Source: an uncultured Spirochaetales bacterium (GTDB lineage Bacteria; Spirochaetota; Spirochaetia; Sphaerochaetales; Sphaerochaetaceae). Taken from it: a stretch of DNA of 64,000 nt. Below, piece after piece: positions 5,107 through 11,806 of the stretch. The position numbers and the translations under genes are program-made. Numbering within the stretch: the stretch's first letter is position 1; every line of letters begins with the position of its first letter. The notes below the pieces were generated by a model. The model did not search any database, was not told the DNA's origin, and saw nothing but the letters and a program-made list of their open reading frames with translations. The DNA lies in assembly GCA_949293335.1 (NCBI GenBank), contig CASFDA010000029.1, forward strand, positions 62,001-126,000, read 5' to 3'.

Positions 5107-6144
5107 TCATACCCAGCAAAAACTCTTTACCGGATACTCTGCCATCGCTTTCTCAAAAAGGTTCTCATCATCTGGAGGAAGATTGAAATCATATTCGGGA
5201 AGATTGAATATCTTCTGGATGTTCCTCCCGTAGAGGTCTTTTATGTGATCTTCAGAGGCTCCATTTTCGCGCAGCTTATGCATCAAAAGGAGCATCGCGG
5301 GAAGTGAAGGTATTCCACTTGCGCCCCTCTCTTTGTCTTCCAATGTATGAGGCGCATGATCACTTTCAACATTGTCAATCTTTCCTTCCAGAAGGGAAGA
5401 GAAGATGAAAGCCCTGTCTTCTTCTGAACGGAGAGGCGGATTCATCTTCAGATACCTCTTCTTGTCTTTTGCATCATCTGAAGTATAGAGCGCATGATGC
5501 GGGGTTGCTCCCATTGAGATATCGACATTCCTCTTCTTCGCGTCAAGAACTTCCTCCACCCCTTTTCTTGTAGAGATGTGGGCAATGTGCAGATGCCCCT
5601 TGAAGCCCGTTTTGTCAGCAAGTTCAAGCGCATCACGTATGCTTTCTATCTCGCTTTCACTCGGGCGGGCCTTGGAATGTGTGGAAAAATCATCCAATGA
5701 GAATAACGACATGTCATTCAAGCTCTCTTTTTCCGCATGCAGGACAAGAACACCCCTGTATGAAGCATCCGCAAGTGCAGAAAATACATTCTCCTGCTCC
5801 TCTTCACTGACAATTCCCATGTTTCCTGTACTGTGAGAAAGGAAGAGCTTCAGTCCCACTACATCAGGAAAGAGCCTCTTCTGGAGAAGCACCATTCTGC
5901 GAACCTGATCGGTATCACTTGTGAGACCTGCGTAGAGAGAATACCTGACGCCATGTTTCTCACCTTCGCTCTTGCCTTCTTCAAGCCTCTTCAGAATAAG
6001 GTCTTCTTCTGTAAGCGGAGGCTTTGTGTTCGGCATGTCAAACAACCAGGTGAAACCCAAAAGGCCAGCAACCTTCATCGCATGAGAAATCGTCTCTTTT
6101 TCACTTTCATTCCAGTCACGGAGATGAACATGGGAATCTATCAT
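5107..6144 (-). CDS. pyrC: Dihydroorotase
   Basis: It closes N-carbamoyl-aspartate to dihydroorotate, the third step of UMP synthesis. Metal-binding residues of the amidohydrolase fold are visible: DSHVHLRDW at the N-terminus (HxH), the lysine of GLKLFLSHSTGN that should be carboxylated, histidines in GHLHIAHIST, and the aspartate of ESDHAPHT. The substrate motif DMPNTKPP is intact. The protein is 345 residues if it begins at MIDSHVH. I chose this start because its ATG overlaps the pyrDK stop (TGATG); an upstream in-frame extension only reads back through pyrDK. It is the last gene of the pyr operon. Confidence 0.93.
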   Translation of the reverse strand: MIDSHVHLRDWNESEKETISHAMKVAGLLGFTWLFDMPNTKPPLTEEDLILKRLEEGKSEGEKHGVRYSLYAGLTSDTDQVRRMVLLQKRLFPDVVGLKLFLSHSTGNMGIVSEEEQENVFSALADASYRGVLVLHAEKESLNDMSLFSLDDFSTHSKARPSESEIESIRDALELADKTGFKGHLHIAHISTRKGVEEVLDAKKRNVDISMGATPHHALYTSDDAKDKKRYLKMNPPLRSEEDRAFIFSSLLEGKIDNVESDHAPHTLEDKERGASGIPSLPAMLLLMHKLRENGASEDHIKDLYGRNIQKIFNLPEYDFNLPPDDENLFEKAMAEYPVKSFCWV

Positions 6145-7829
6145 CAGAGTTCTACTCCATTTTCTGTGATGTACTTCCAGGAGAAGAACGTGCCTTCCCT
6201 GCATGGCAGGCGATCACCGACTACACATTCTCCGCACATTCCTATCCCGCACATCGTCATCGTCTCGACAGATATGTTGATTTTCTCCGGAGAGACACCG
6301 AGAGAGACAAGCCGGTCGGCACCTTTTTTCATCATGAGCGTAGGACCGACAATGTAATACACGGTCTTATCGTCGACATCATCTTTTCCGATCGTCTCCA
6401 AAACGCGTCCGGGAATGCCATCATCTGGCACAACTACGTATTTCCCATATTTCCTGAGTTCGTCTTCAAGCAGCCCCTTCCCGCTCTCGGGAAGACACTT
6501 CACCCCGATCCTGAAGGACATTTCAGTGCCTTCCTTCTCAAGTTTTTCTGCCAGTAGATTCAGAACAACAGTTCCTGTTCCTCCTCCGATCAGGAGCGCC
6601 TTTTCTGCTTTTTCTGTCGCAACCGGAGCCCCTGAAAGACCACGCATGTATATGACATCACCCTCTCTGAGCTTCTTTACACCCTCTGTAAAAGGTCCCT
6701 TCACCTTGATGATGAAAGATAGAGGTTTTCTCCTTGCAACAGAAAACGGCCTTTCTCCGAGTCCTGGCAAAAAGAGGAACACGAACTCACCTGCCCTGCA
6801 TGTGCTTTCCCCATCAAGCGTGAGAATGACAGTCTCTTCATCGTACATGGAAATATCCGTGACGCGATGCTTCCTGTACTCGAGGTTCTCATGACTCATA
6901 GTGAAGAAACTTTTCACATCCTCTTTCTTCTTCAGTGCTTCAAAATAAGATGGCCATAAACCTGGATGTATGCGCGCAAGGGCAGATCCGATACCAACGC
7001 TGTCAGCTCCGCATGAAAGCATCTTCTCAACATCTTCTGATGTCGAGATTCCTCCCATGGAAAGTATTATAGGCTCATCTCCGATACGCTCACGGATACT
7101 CCGGACTGCATCAAAAGCAATTTCCTTCACCCATTCTCCTGATGCGCCACCTTTTCCGCCAAGCTTGTTATGCAGTATTTCATGCCCGTCCAGGAAATAC
7201 TCCCTCGGTCCGACAGTATTGATCGCAGCAACCCCATCAGCTCCGCTTCTGATCGCAATTTCCGCCATCTTCGCAATTGAGGGGACATTAGGCGTGAGTT
7301 TGATGATCAATAGGCTTCTTCTGTCTTTTGTCGCACTGTGTATCTTCTCGACATATGTCCTGACCAGCTCCTCATCGCTTCCTATAGTCGCACCAAAACC
7401 TTTCGCCGCATGAGGGCAGGAGAAATTGAGCTCGATCATATCCGCAACCGGATCGAATTTCTTCACAAGCGTTATGAAATCTTCAGGATTCGATGCAGAA
7501 ACAGAGACATTCAGAATTTTGCAAAGCCCTTCGGAACGCAACTTTGAAAGATATGAGTATGCGTATTCCATTCCGGGATTCCTGAGTCCCACAGAATTTC
7601 CAAAGTCACCTTCTTCCGGACTTACGACAACAGGTCCTGTATTTCCCGGGTTCGGCGTAACCTGGAAAGATTTGGTGGTTATTATATCAAGCGCGGGAAA
7701 ATCCCTGTCAAAATGACGGACAATGCTTTCCTTAGTACTGGCAACTCCTGATACCGTAGAGAGAACTACATCCTTTCTGATGTGGTTCCTGTAAAGCAAT
7801 CGATATGCCTTTCCCTCTTTCCTATCCAT
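6144..7829 (-). CDS. pyrDK: Fused dihydroorotate dehydrogenase PyrD-PyrK
   Basis: This 561-residue fusion joins the class 1B FMN-dependent catalytic subunit (about residues 1-310) to the FAD/[2Fe-2S] electron-transfer subunit (about 318-561), which normally are separate proteins. The PyrD half shows the loop LNFSCPHAAKG with its catalytic cysteine, INTVGP, and the phosphate-binding GGISTSEDV. The PyrK half shows the nucleotide motif GGGTGTVVLNLL and a cluster-binding C-terminus with four cysteines (TMTMCGIGMCGECVVGDRLPC). The fusion should oxidise dihydroorotate with NAD as acceptor. The start overlaps pyrF by 8 bases; the stop overlaps pyrC. Confidence 0.92.
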   Translation of the reverse strand: MDRKEGKAYRLLYRNHIRKDVVLSTVSGVASTKESIVRHFDRDFPALDIITTKSFQVTPNPGNTGPVVVSPEEGDFGNSVGLRNPGMEYAYSYLSKLRSEGLCKILNVSVSASNPEDFITLVKKFDPVADMIELNFSCPHAAKGFGATIGSDEELVRTYVEKIHSATKDRRSLLIIKLTPNVPSIAKMAEIAIRSGADGVAAINTVGPREYFLDGHEILHNKLGGKGGASGEWVKEIAFDAVRSIRERIGDEPIILSMGGISTSEDVEKMLSCGADSVGIGSALARIHPGLWPSYFEALKKKEDVKSFFTMSHENLEYRKHRVTDISMYDEETVILTLDGESTCRAGEFVFLFLPGLGERPFSVARRKPLSFIIKVKGPFTEGVKKLREGDVIYMRGLSGAPVATEKAEKALLIGGGTGTVVLNLLAEKLEKEGTEMSFRIGVKCLPESGKGLLEDELRKYGKYVVVPDDGIPGRVLETIGKDDVDDKTVYYIVGPTLMMKKGADRLVSLGVSPEKINISVETMTMCGIGMCGECVVGDRLPCREGTFFSWKYITENGVEL

Positions 7830-8700
7830 TCAAAGAACACTCCCCGATGAGTTTAGAGATGTTCGAAAGCGAAAGCTCAAGCCAATTCTCAGGCGCAACC
7901 TTCTCTTTCTTCTTCCAGGGATGAGTGAGCGCGGAAGAGGAGTTGATCCTCGCGAGCCGCGCATCATACCCAGTTTTGGCAAGTACGCCGATAACATCTG
8001 GTGCGCTTCCGCCCTGACTTCCCACACCCGGGACAAGAATCGGGACATTGTGATCCTTGAACACCCTCACAATATTCTCCATCTCCTCCAGATGGGTTGC
8101 CCCCACGACCGCACCAACAGAGCCCTCGTCACCATTCCATCTCACAATGCTCTCAGCTACCGCCATATAAAGTGTTCTTCCATCCTGGAGAACAAGATTC
8201 TGGAAGTCCTTGCCACCTTCATTGCTGGTCCTGCAGAGAACATAGAATCCTTTACCTTCTTTCTTGAATGGCAAAATCGAATCTGATCCCATATAAGGTG
8301 AAACTGTGACGCTGTCCGCCATCCAGCTAGAATATGCTTCATCTGCATAATTCTGACTGCTTCTTGCGATGTCCCCACGTTTTGAATCGAGTATCACAAC
8401 GCTTGAAGGGAACAGCATCCTGATCATGACCAGAACTTCAGAAAGAGCCTTGGATCCCGAATAATTACCTTCAAGAGGAGAATCAAGAGATGCATAATAC
8501 CCGATGTTCGGCTTGAATGCAGAGGGCACAAGGCCACGCTCTGACATCTTTCCGAAAAGAGTACTGAAAAAGCGTGTTATGCGCGTTCCTGCAGGAAGCT
8601 CCGGATACGGAAGCGCTTCAGGATCTGGATCCAGTCCCATGCATGCTATATTACCGGTCTCGTCAAATGACGAAAGAAGTCTTTTCTTATAATCGATCAT
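7822..8700 (-). CDS. pyrF: Orotidine 5'-phosphate decarboxylase (type 2)
   Basis: It decarboxylates OMP to UMP, the last step of the pathway. The 292-residue product belongs to the longer 'subfamily 2' enzymes: MGLDPDPEALP, FKPNIGYYAS, and the catalytic LDSKRGDIARSSQNYA with its K/D residues are present, as is the phosphate-binding VPGVGSQGG. The chosen start (MIDYKK) overlaps the pyrE stop in TGATG; the in-frame extension upstream is pyrE sequence read in another frame. Confidence 0.93.
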   Translation of the reverse strand: MIDYKKRLLSSFDETGNIACMGLDPDPEALPYPELPAGTRITRFFSTLFGKMSERGLVPSAFKPNIGYYASLDSPLEGNYSGSKALSEVLVMIRMLFPSSVVILDSKRGDIARSSQNYADEAYSSWMADSVTVSPYMGSDSILPFKKEGKGFYVLCRTSNEGGKDFQNLVLQDGRTLYMAVAESIVRWNGDEGSVGAVVGATHLEEMENIVRVFKDHNVPILVPGVGSQGGSAPDVIGVLAKTGYDARLARINSSSALTHPWKKKEKVAPENWLELSLSNISKLIGECSLNG

Positions 8701-9395
8701 CAGCTCTCCTTCGGCCAGCCATGTGCCTCTCCCCAATTGAACGGGTCTTCTCTCCACTCTCTGAGCATCTCTCCCTCTTCCTTGGAGATATATCCAGTCT
8801 CAAGTGCCACCTCAATCATCAGATCATATGAAAGTATCGTATGATACATCGCACTTGGCTCAAGCGAAGTGAATGCTTCCTCGGACTGTTTGAGACCATA
8901 TGAGAATATGCCAAGGCATGTATCGCATAATCCATCCTGTCTTCTGATTGCCTCAACAGCCTTCACAGAAGAAGAGCCGGTACTGATCAGATCCTCAATC
9001 AGAAGAATCCTCGCTCCATGATAGGAACCATCCCTTCCAAGACCTTCTATCTGATGGCCAAGTCCATGATCTTTGCTTCCGCTCCTTACATATGAAAGGG
9101 GCTTGTACAACCTGTCTGCGAGGCTCGTTGCATGTGGAATGCCTGCGGTTGCAGTACCAGCAATCCCATCAACCTGAAGGGAAAGGCTTTCGATCATGTC
9201 GGAAAATGCATCACAGATCAGGGCACGGTACTGAGCCTTTGCAAGGAACTGTCTGTTGTCGTTGTATATCGGCATGCGATAGCCACTTACCCATTTGAAC
9301 GGGTCTTTCGGGCTAAGCCTGATAGCTCCAAGTTCAAAAGCACCTTTGGCAAGCTGCTTTCCATAGTAATCAGTAATTTCCTTCAGCATCTTCAT
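8700..9395 (-). CDS. pyrE: Orotate phosphoribosyltransferase
   Basis: It joins orotate to PRPP, giving OMP. The 231-residue product carries the PRPP-binding motif as ARILLIEDLISTGSSS at about residues 130-145, the orotate-side motif FKWVSGYRMPIYNDNR and the flexible-loop sequence SYVRSGSKDHGLGHQ. A strong ribosome site (AGGAGG) lies 9 bases before the ATG of MKMLKE; upstream in-frame sequence reads back into pyrBI and is not used. It lies 13 bases after pyrBI and overlaps pyrF by one base. Confidence 0.93.
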   Translation of the reverse strand: MKMLKEITDYYGKQLAKGAFELGAIRLSPKDPFKWVSGYRMPIYNDNRQFLAKAQYRALICDAFSDMIESLSLQVDGIAGTATAGIPHATSLADRLYKPLSYVRSGSKDHGLGHQIEGLGRDGSYHGARILLIEDLISTGSSSVKAVEAIRRQDGLCDTCLGIFSYGLKQSEEAFTSLEPSAMYHTILSYDLMIEVALETGYISKEEGEMLREWREDPFNWGEAHGWPKES

Positions 9396-9408: not shown

Positions 9409-10998
9409 CTAGTTCTTCTTCCAGATTTCCTTGAATGTATGCACCCTGCCACAGTATGCACACTCGAACTTGCCGTCATGTGTCCTATGGAAGGATGCGG
9501 GAACACCCTCACCGCTCAATGGGTGAGATATGCATGCTTCATTAGAACATGACAGGTCACTGAAATTATATATCCTCGGGGGTGTATGGGTCCTGTATTT
9601 CTTCTCGACCTTACCATCCTTTATCAGATTGAGAGTACAGTTAGGAGCAAGAGCAGCAAGCCTCTTGAGATCCGCCCTCTTCAATTCATACTCACCTGGC
9701 CGGAATATTATTCCCTTGTACTTGCCATCTGATCCCTTGCTGACCCACTCCCCGCCTTTACCGTCATCAAGACCGAGGACAGAGGAAATGAGACGCATAT
9801 GTGTCCTTATATCCTTGGGCTCCTCGCCTTTGCAGATATGATCAATTACAATGCCATCCCTGATCGGACGCACACCTTCAGAATAGTTCTTGTCCTTCTT
9901 CGGATGATCTTCAGGCTGGACCTCGATTATATACTCCTCGCTCTCATAATCAGGCTCTTTCTGCATATGGCCGTCAAAGTCATCCCCGATCTTTCCGCTT
10001 ATCAGTGAAAGGAGGACCATGCGGCTATACATGCCGTTTATAGCCTGCCTTTCCCAGGCGTTGAAGTTAGTCTTGTCGAGGAATGTTGGGATGGTCGGAT
10101 GTTCCTTATGCCTTGGCAGCGGATGATAGAACTTGGTGTTCGGATCAATAAGCGGCATGAACTCCTCACGGAACGTGATTGCCTCCCTCAATATCGCTTC
10201 TTTCTGCAATATCCGCTCACCCATCCTTTCAAGCTGGGGCCTCGTGAAGTACCACATGAGGGCGACATCACCGCATTTCAGGTATTCTTCAATCGAGGGG
10301 AAGATACGGACGGAGAACCCGTTTTCCTTCATCCTGTCAATATAACTTTCAGGCATCATCAGTTCATCTGGAGCAATGAGATCAACCTTGACAGAGTCGA
10401 ACAACTTCAAGCCGTCAGCCTTTGAATGCACAGTTCTTCCATGATAAAGATCACCGACAAGTGCGAGATGAATATGAGAAAAGTCCATTCCGTTGTCCTC
10501 GAGGAAGGAGAACTCATCCAGAAGTTCCTGTGTAGGATGTTCGTGCTTTCCGTCTCCCGCGTTGATGAATGCGGGACGATATGGAAGGCCGTTCCGCTTC
10601 GCATACTCACCGGTCTCTTCCGACAACCACTTGGTAAGACCCTCAACAGTACTTCTGACGATAAAGATCACATTCTGGTATCCAGAGAGCATGTTGAATG
10701 TATCTGCGTAGCTCTCACCCTTGTTGATCGAGGAAGAGGAAGTCAGAAGTTCAGATACTTTCACATGATGGAACTTCGCTGCGTTTCGGAAGGACTCCTT
10801 GGTCCTTGTACTGTTTTCCAGAAAGACTTCGTAAATGCCGAAATCAGGATCGTTGATCCTGAACTTGTCCATCACGTCATCATCTGAGGACAAGATGGCA
10901 TCCTTCAGTTCCTTCGTCTTCCTGAAGAAATACCTGCGCTCATCGATCGAAAAGTCCTCGATGACATTGAGACTCCTAGACTTGAAAACATCAGACAT
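9409..10998 (-). CDS. pyrBI: Fused aspartate carbamoyltransferase PyrB-PyrI
   Basis: The 529-residue protein fuses the catalytic chain (about residues 1-345) to the regulatory chain (about 370-529), as known in Thermotoga maritima. Catalytic motifs are intact: NSTRTKESF for carbamoyl phosphate, HPTQ, DLYHGRTVHS and HPLPR. The regulatory part ends in a zinc module with CSNEAC and CAYC, so nucleotide control of the enzyme is likely. The start is ATG at 10998 with a GGAGGAG ribosome site. A TTG further upstream gives an open extension, but that sequence crosses a terminator hairpin and is not expected in the protein. It is the first enzyme gene of the pyr operon. Confidence 0.93.
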   Translation of the reverse strand: MSDVFKSRSLNVIEDFSIDERRYFFRKTKELKDAILSSDDDVMDKFRINDPDFGIYEVFLENSTRTKESFRNAAKFHHVKVSELLTSSSSINKGESYADTFNMLSGYQNVIFIVRSTVEGLTKWLSEETGEYAKRNGLPYRPAFINAGDGKHEHPTQELLDEFSFLEDNGMDFSHIHLALVGDLYHGRTVHSKADGLKLFDSVKVDLIAPDELMMPESYIDRMKENGFSVRIFPSIEEYLKCGDVALMWYFTRPQLERMGERILQKEAILREAITFREEFMPLIDPNTKFYHPLPRHKEHPTIPTFLDKTNFNAWERQAINGMYSRMVLLSLISGKIGDDFDGHMQKEPDYESEEYIIEVQPEDHPKKDKNYSEGVRPIRDGIVIDHICKGEEPKDIRTHMRLISSVLGLDDGKGGEWVSKGSDGKYKGIIFRPGEYELKRADLKRLAALAPNCTLNLIKDGKVEKKYRTHTPPRIYNFSDLSCSNEACISHPLSGEGVPASFHRTHDGKFECAYCGRVHTFKEIWKKN

Positions 10999-11113
10999 CG
11001 ACTCCTCCAAAAAAAATCGGTCCCCAGCAGATGGGAGGCCGAAGAAAGTCAGGGTAAATACGGAAGATGTCAATAACTAGAATTGAGTTATGTGTTTCAA
11101 TTCGCTTTTTCAT
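10991..11113 (-). CDS. PyrL-like leader peptide (40 codons)
   Basis: A 40-codon ORF starts at ATG 11113 behind a purine-rich AGGCGGAAG ribosome site. It reads through the whole intrinsic terminator and its T run and stops at a TGA that overlaps the first codons of pyrBI (ATGTCTGA). It lies in a different frame from pyrBI. This layout is that of the enterobacterial pyrBI attenuator. There, a ribosome that keeps up with RNA polymerase stalled for lack of UTP prevents the hairpin, so transcription enters pyrB when UTP is low. The second half of the leader is T-rich, as that model needs. Expression is inferred. Confidence 0.65.
   Translation of the reverse strand: MKKRIETHNSILVIDIFRIYPDFLRPPICWGPIFFGGVDV
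11009..11040 (-). terminator. Attenuator terminator before pyrBI
   Basis: On the minus strand a GC-rich hairpin (outer GG/CC, inner TCCCA/TGGGGA with one bulge, loop TCTGC; 11019-11040) is followed at once by eight T residues (11009-11016) and then by the pyrBI ribosome site. A terminator upstream of an operon's first gene, covered by a leader ORF, implies attenuation. Confidence 0.75.
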
Positions 11114-11146
11114 TTCTTCCGCCTATTTAGTTGAGGATACCAACTA

Positions 11147-11806
11147 TCAAGAACCCTTGTCCATAGAGAGTATGATTTCCTCAAGCTCTTCTGGTTTTTC
11201 CGCACACGGTTCCGGCAGGCCATATGGAAAACCAAAGCCCCAGGAGACAGCAACAAAAGGAACAGAGAGTGCGGCAGCACCTTTTTCATCGCTTTCAGAG
11301 TCACCGACAAGAACCGCCTGAGAACTTCTGACGTCAAACTCCCTGAGGGAAAGGGAAAGAATCCCGCTTTTTCCCATCGTCAGCCCAGGATCACTCCCAT
11401 GAATTGCCGAGAAGAGGGAAGAAAACGGTGTGGAAGCAATAAGGGACTTTGCTGCCCTCTCATCCTTCAAAGTAGAGACTGTCAGGATGTAGCCCCGTTT
11501 TCTCAGAGAAAGAAGAACATTTTCCAATCCGGGATAATACGAGTACATCTTTATCCCCTCTTCTTTGTATATCTCACGGTAAAGATCAACAGCCTTGTTC
11601 CGCAAAGTACCATCCAGATTGTAGACAATTGAAAAACCATCTTTGAGCGGAGGACCTACAAAACGGCTCTTCTCCTCTGCTGTAAGCACTCTAGAAAACC
11701 CAAGTTCCCGAGCTGTCCTTTCCATCGTGTGCCAGATTCCGGGACTTGTATCAAGGAGTGTTCCATCCAGATCAAAAGAGATCAGTCTTATTCCCGATTT
11801 TCCCAT
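11147..11806 (-). CDS. HAD phosphatase, phosphoglycolate-phosphatase-like
   Basis: A 219-residue HAD-superfamily hydrolase with nucleophile motif FDLDGTLLDT, a threonine motif (LTVSTLKDE), and the acidic motif LVGDSESDEKGA. The helical cap lies between residues 15 and 85, as in Gph/PGP-type enzymes. The substrate cannot be read from sequence. The start overlaps the 3' end of the inositol-phosphatase-like gene by 35 bases, so the two are co-expressed. The stop is 33 bases before the pyr leader ORF. Confidence 0.82.
   Translation of the reverse strand: MGKSGIRLISFDLDGTLLDTSPGIWHTMERTARELGFSRVLTAEEKSRFVGPPLKDGFSIVYNLDGTLRNKAVDLYREIYKEEGIKMYSYYPGLENVLLSLRKRGYILTVSTLKDERAAKSLIASTPFSSLFSAIHGSDPGLTMGKSGILSLSLREFDVRSSQAVLVGDSESDEKGAAALSVPFVAVSWGFGFPYGLPEPCAEKPEELEEIILSMDKGS

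Follow-up and report, generated by a model that had tools for sequence, protein, structure and literature searches.

Attenuator-like leader ORFs and terminators precede the fused pyrBI genes of many Spirochaetia

The de novo pyrimidine operon of an uncultured Sphaerochaetaceae bacterium is very probably (roughly 85%) controlled by a pyrBI-type, translation-coupled, UTP-sensing transcription attenuator. We analyzed the locus in a 64,000-nucleotide stretch of contig CASFDA010000029.1 (the window) and compared it with the pyrBI upstream regions of other Spirochaetia. To our knowledge, pyrBI attenuation is known solely as a gammaproteobacterial textbook case, and no report of it from a spirochaete was found in our literature searches. 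The comparison suggests that pyrBI-type logic is apparently the standard control of pyrimidine operons in a large part of Spirochaetia, and that it is also present in a fusobacterium.

The gene at 9409..10998 on the minus strand matched NF009916 at 810 bits, above the cut-off, which bears out its identification in the first-pass annotation as a fused aspartate carbamoyltransferase catalytic/regulatory gene (pyrBI). Four further ORFs with NCBIfam matches lie 3' of it on the same strand: pyrE (9395-8700), pyrF (8757-7822), a pyrD-pyrK-like fusion (7829-6144), and pyrC (6204-5107). They abut or overlap one another (5107..9395) and, from this arrangement, probably share the pyrBI transcript, and the attenuator here probably stands before pyrBI-pyrE-pyrF-pyrDK-pyrC. 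The carB gene was not found in the window genome (G000) or its sister (G001) and was present in most same-genus genomes searched; in G000, carA gave no more than weak partial matches. A carbamate kinase was above the cut-off in G000 and may supply carbamoyl phosphate to pyrBI.

The leader ORF (11113..10991, minus strand) starts with an ATG at 11113 and has 40 sense codons, MKKRIETHNSILVIDIFRIYPDFLRPPICWGPIFFGGVDV. Its stop codon (10993-10991) lies within ATGTCTGA and overlaps the pyrBI ATG at 10998, and the two ORFs are read in different frames; the first-pass annotation had described all of this accurately. The GC hairpin and run of eight T that it reported inside the leader ORF were likewise seen, as an intrinsic terminator at 11009..11042 (hairpin 11042-11017, T run 11016-11009) immediately 5' of the pyrBI ribosome-binding site GGAGGA (11003..11008), all on the minus strand. 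On the same strand, the leader has its own ribosome-binding site, GGCGGAAG (11116..11123), which is weak by perfect match and whose counterpart in the sister genome is GGCGGAGAA. A U-rich stretch with T at 10 of 20 positions (11041..11060, minus strand) precedes the terminator and is proposed as the UTP-sensitive pausing site. A promoter-like site, TGGACA-18-TATCCT, lies at 11134..11163 (minus strand), ending ~20 nt upstream of the leader start, from which transcription would start near 11128. Sites of this sort numbered nine in 5 kb, compared with 6.0 expected. The window's hairpin is imperfect (-10.7 kcal/mol, equalled by 6 of 200 shuffles), and both this terminator and the leader ribosome site GGCGGAAG are modest, which we counted against the attenuator reading. 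As sequence, the window alone would not convincingly beat chance; its relatives do.

Relatives fetched by their pyrBI genes included uncultured Spirochaetaceae and Spirochaetales bins, Candidatus Ornithospirochaeta, Candidatus Aphodenecus, and Sphaerochaeta halotolerans, which places the window genome in the Sphaerochaeta group of Spirochaetia. The first 30 same-genus loci retrieved all had the order promoter, leader ORF, U-rich stretch, terminator, and pyrBI, with the terminator at the equivalent place in 30/30, and a T[AG]GACA-17/18-TA[TC]NNT promoter layout was found upstream of most same-genus leaders. Together with a search of the class, the named set gave 153 distinct pyrBI upstream regions, 100 of which had an intrinsic terminator within 135 nt. 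Most of the terminator-fronted pyrBI genes, from at least eight Spirochaetia families, were preceded by a promoter, a short leader ORF, and a U-rich stretch. An ORF led by a ribosome site and reaching the terminator was found in 79 of these 100 loci, compared with 16.9 ± 3.6 in dinucleotide-shuffled leaders. The window's own leader failed this strict filter owing to its weak ribosome site, and its 89% identical sister locus (L002), with the ribosome site GGCGGAG, passed. Several of the remaining 21 loci, the window included, were missed solely through a weak ribosome site or an ORF start very near the 5' end of the transcript (L001, L068, L070-L072, L091, and L133). In families without a terminator, pyrBI by eye mostly lay close behind another ORF. 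Five loci from other Spirochaetia (L068, L070, L071, L072, and L091) had a leader ORF that appeared to be nearly leaderless, with a consensus-like -10 box ~10-15 nt before the ATG; these leaders have in common a KKPD-like motif and an end very rich in U.

The openness of the leader frame was assessed in 65 leaders, with the start picked by the ribosome site alone and the stop ignored. All 65 leader ORFs continued without a stop at least to a point 16 nt short of the hairpin, while 102 of the 130 alternative frames stopped earlier and 28 were open as far. Of the 65 leaders, 37 had their stop 1-11 nt before the hairpin and 27 had it past the hairpin start. Thus, the form described by the first-pass annotation, in which the leader covers the hairpin and overlaps the pyrBI start, holds for the window and is not the common one. 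Ending just before the hairpin should serve as well as covering it, since termination in E. coli fell from ~90% to <10% when a stop codon was shifted from 28 bp to 5 bp ahead of a terminator, and this suppression by a nearby stop was attributed to the terminating ribosome (PMC4824070). Among the relatives, the U content at positions -28 to -3 before the hairpin was 44%, compared with 27% in the remaining leader ORF. The pre-terminator stretch of the Sphaerochaeta-type leaders (L060-L066) was less U-rich by eye, which was counted against our reading.

The leader ORF and hairpin were therefore conserved in related spirochaetes, both in Sphaerochaetaceae and in several other Spirochaetia families, as the check proposed in the first-pass annotation requires. 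The synonymous-biased change that this check also called for was absent: substitutions among close relatives were spread 30/32/32 over the three codon positions. Judged from these sequence patterns, selection acts on the open frame of the leader and not on its peptide. Such a bias is not required, because the pyrBI model needs an open frame and not a peptide. The unrelated leader sequences amount to natural mutagenesis; what they have kept is a U-rich stretch, a frame that stays open and ends at the hairpin, and the absence of any antiterminator.

In E. coli pyrL, transcription under ample UTP is quick and ends at the terminator, while at low UTP polymerase pauses and the ribosome can keep the hairpin from forming (PMC10135430). 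The spirochaete loci have the same parts: a leader with its own ribosome site behind a promoter, an ORF reaching a terminator directly before pyrB, a U-rich stretch before that terminator, and no alternative antiterminator. The recurrence of the leader ORF, U-rich stretch, and terminator in relatives supports the pyrL-like reading of the first-pass annotation, and we infer from it UTP as the signal, pausing, and ribosome blockage. In the window, polymerase would start near 11128 and transcribe the leader ribosome site, the leader ORF, the U-rich stretch, and the terminator in turn. With ample UTP, it would outrun the first ribosome, the hairpin would form, and transcription would stop before pyrBI. 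With scarce UTP, it would slow in the U-rich stretch, and a ribosome on the leader could catch up and cover the 5' side of the hairpin, letting polymerase proceed into the operon.

A leader ORF followed by a terminator is also the outline of an amino-acid-sensing, trp-type attenuator, in which ribosomes held up at codons of an amino acid in short supply determine whether the terminator or an antiterminator forms. However, the leaders listed showed no single-codon run or dominant residue, their last nine residues mix F, S, L, and I as accounted for by U-richness, and the peptide is not conserved. Furthermore, no leader segment paired with the terminator beyond chance in 53 leaders (z +1.1 to +3.7), so there is no mutually exclusive antiterminator and no trp-like switch, and we consider this explanation very improbable. 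Even less credence is due to the explanation that the leader ORF is open by chance and that the terminator merely ends the transcript of the upstream gene. Taken singly, the window does allow it: an ORF of 40 codons with one hairpin is no rarity, and the HAD-phosphatase gene upstream ends nearby, at 11147. At the level of the clade, however, this explanation was refuted by the open-frame counts (65/65 vs 28/130 in the other frames), by the shuffles (79/100 vs 16.9 expected), and by a conserved helix at the leader ribosome site, described below.

Control by PyrR, a UMP/UTP-binding protein acting on leader RNA, has in its favour that four genomes assigned to the same genus carry PyrR (G005, G013, G021, and G030). 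However, these four are among those whose pyrBI leader is without a ribosome-site-led ORF, and none of the other same-genus genomes searched had PyrR above the cut-off. The best match in the 99% complete window genome, at 24.7 bits, fell short of the cut-off (138). The window had no match to the PyrR RNA (RF00515) at the gathering score, consistent with the first-pass annotation, which saw no PyrR-type binding structure. We thus give PyrR control at this locus next to no weight. The four PyrR-bearing genomes (loci L078-L081, from G030, G021, G013, and G005, respectively) are assigned to this genus as a divergent clade and have true PyrR; their pyrBI leaders have a terminator and a conserved ATGACACAGAGACACAGAAGAGACAT stretch. 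At a loose Rfam threshold, sub-threshold PyrR sites were found near pyrR in these genomes, and none at pyrBI. Three of these four genomes were searched for carB, and none had it.

The diversity of the leaders exposed a helix over the leader ribosome site, which E. coli K-12 pyrL apparently carries too. In the predicted fold of the window leader, GCGGAAGA (11115..11122, minus strand), covering the leader ribosome site, pairs with UCUUCCGU, and the 3' arm, TCTTCCGT (11060..11067, minus strand), lies just 5' of the U-rich stretch. The window duplex has -12.8 kcal/mol (z -2.0 vs shuffles). Over 57 leaders less than ~70% alike, the duplex between ribosome site and pre-terminator segment averaged -14.7 kcal/mol for native and -12.0 kcal/mol for swapped partners, and native duplexes were stronger than those with dinucleotide-shuffled partners (Stouffer -7.8). 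A swapped-partner test of 53 leaders gave z -7.1; common ancestry of the leaders makes such z values upper limits. In the same 53 leaders, no such signal was seen for the pyrBI ribosome site with the pre-terminator segment (z +1.1), the leader ribosome site with pyrBI codons (z -0.6), or the promoter region with the pre-terminator segment (z +0.1). A position map showed one antidiagonal ridge, with the ribosome site pairing at -26/-32 relative to the hairpin (best z -8.4), the start codon at -38, and codons 3-7 at -44. The 3' arm ended a median of 17 nt (IQR 13-20) before the terminator. A MAFFT alignment of one close group misplaced this arm in some rows.

In the window, TTTCTTC.GGCCT, which overlaps the 5' arm of the terminator, is an alternative pairing partner of the leader ribosome site (11124-11036), and this second TTTCTTC makes the predicted folding ambiguous, a point that we counted against the attenuator reading. 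Pairing of the leader ribosome site with the terminator was not in excess among relatives (z +1.3, 53 leaders).

The pyrBI-type layout was also found in Klebsiella, Proteus, Photobacterium, Aeromonas, and the fusobacterium Ilyobacter. In E. coli, CCGGGAGGA pairs with UUUCUUCCCG at -21.5 kcal/mol (P 0.008 vs shuffles), and the probability that the ribosome site is unpaired is predicted to drop from ~0.5 to 0 in the course of transcription through the segment; two variant E. coli strains were the same as K-12 across the leader. The equivalent pairing had P 0.018 in Photobacterium and P 0.06-0.14 in Klebsiella, Aeromonas, Proteus, and Ilyobacter, and the combined z was -4.2 for the six leaders outside Spirochaetia, two of which are close relatives. 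In Ilyobacter polytropus (L190:202-372), an annotated hypothetical 56-codon ORF before pyrB resembles a pyrL-type leader that has gone unrecognised, and its ribosome site pairs with the ORF interior (AGGTAGAAAA/TTTTCTACCT). No relatives of E. coli PyrB were found in viral contigs. Leaders change too fast for common descent of the layout to be shown. The helix was not found described in the literature searched, and earlier pyrBI papers may have noted it. A ribosome site that pairs with distal leader RNA has been described for trpL.

The helix may serve to gate ribosome loading, act as a pause hairpin, or shut off later rounds of leader translation. We favour a time gate, in which the modelled helix would leave the ribosome site open only until the 3' segment leaves polymerase; early loading would then be needed, and the response would be sharper. 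Our tentative proposal, to which we give slightly less than even odds, is that the helix is functional in the pyrBI attenuators of spirochaetes, gammaproteobacteria including E. coli, and fusobacteria, closing the leader ribosome site after polymerase passage so that only slow transcription licenses leader translation. If this is true, the textbook pyrBI mechanism lacks one element. Accessibility of the ribosome site (SD) in late transcripts was rejected as proof of occlusion (native 0.30 vs 0.33 with shuffled segments, p 0.18): shuffled pyrimidine-rich segments also hide the purine-rich ribosome site, so occlusion is not singled out and our claim is restricted to duplex covariation.

Within the same attenuator, the helix could instead be a pause hairpin behind polymerase in the U-rich stretch, melted by the leading ribosome. 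In trp and his leaders, a leading ribosome frees polymerase paused at a hairpin, and the 3' arm end, a median of 17 nt before the terminator, would put the helix base close behind polymerase in the U-rich stretch. However, a plain pause hairpin would have no need for conserved pairing centred on the ribosome site and start codon, as is seen here. In addition, an E. coli pyrL pause was insensitive to NusA, and compensatory hairpin mutations gave no rescue (PMC9291695), which makes a pause hairpin less likely; the pause studied there lies ~24 nt upstream of the earlier-studied one. We therefore regard the pause hairpin as unlikely, though far from negligible, and prefer the time gate.

Compared with known systems, the spirochaete loci share premature termination ahead of pyrimidine genes with the Bacillus PyrR attenuators (RF00515), but those need PyrR and its RNA site, neither of which was above threshold here. 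They share a terminator controlled by leader translation with the trp and his leader-peptide attenuators, from which they differ in having no stalling codons seen and no antiterminator. The closest likeness is to E. coli pyrBI/PyrL. The leader sequences of E. coli and the spirochaetes are unrelated, pyrB and pyrI are separate in E. coli while the window has a fused pyrBI followed by pyrE, pyrF, pyrDK, and pyrC, and the E. coli leader stops 44 nt after the hairpin start, whereas most spirochaete leaders stop before the hairpin. Nevertheless, the order is the same, with a promoter, a ribosome site, a leader ORF of similar length, a U-rich stretch (48% U at -28 to -3 in E. coli), and a GC hairpin with a T run before pyrB. 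The distance from the leader ATG to the hairpin is 88 nt in E. coli and 71 nt in the window, and in E. coli the leader ribosome site likewise pairs with a segment ~17-24 nt before the hairpin.
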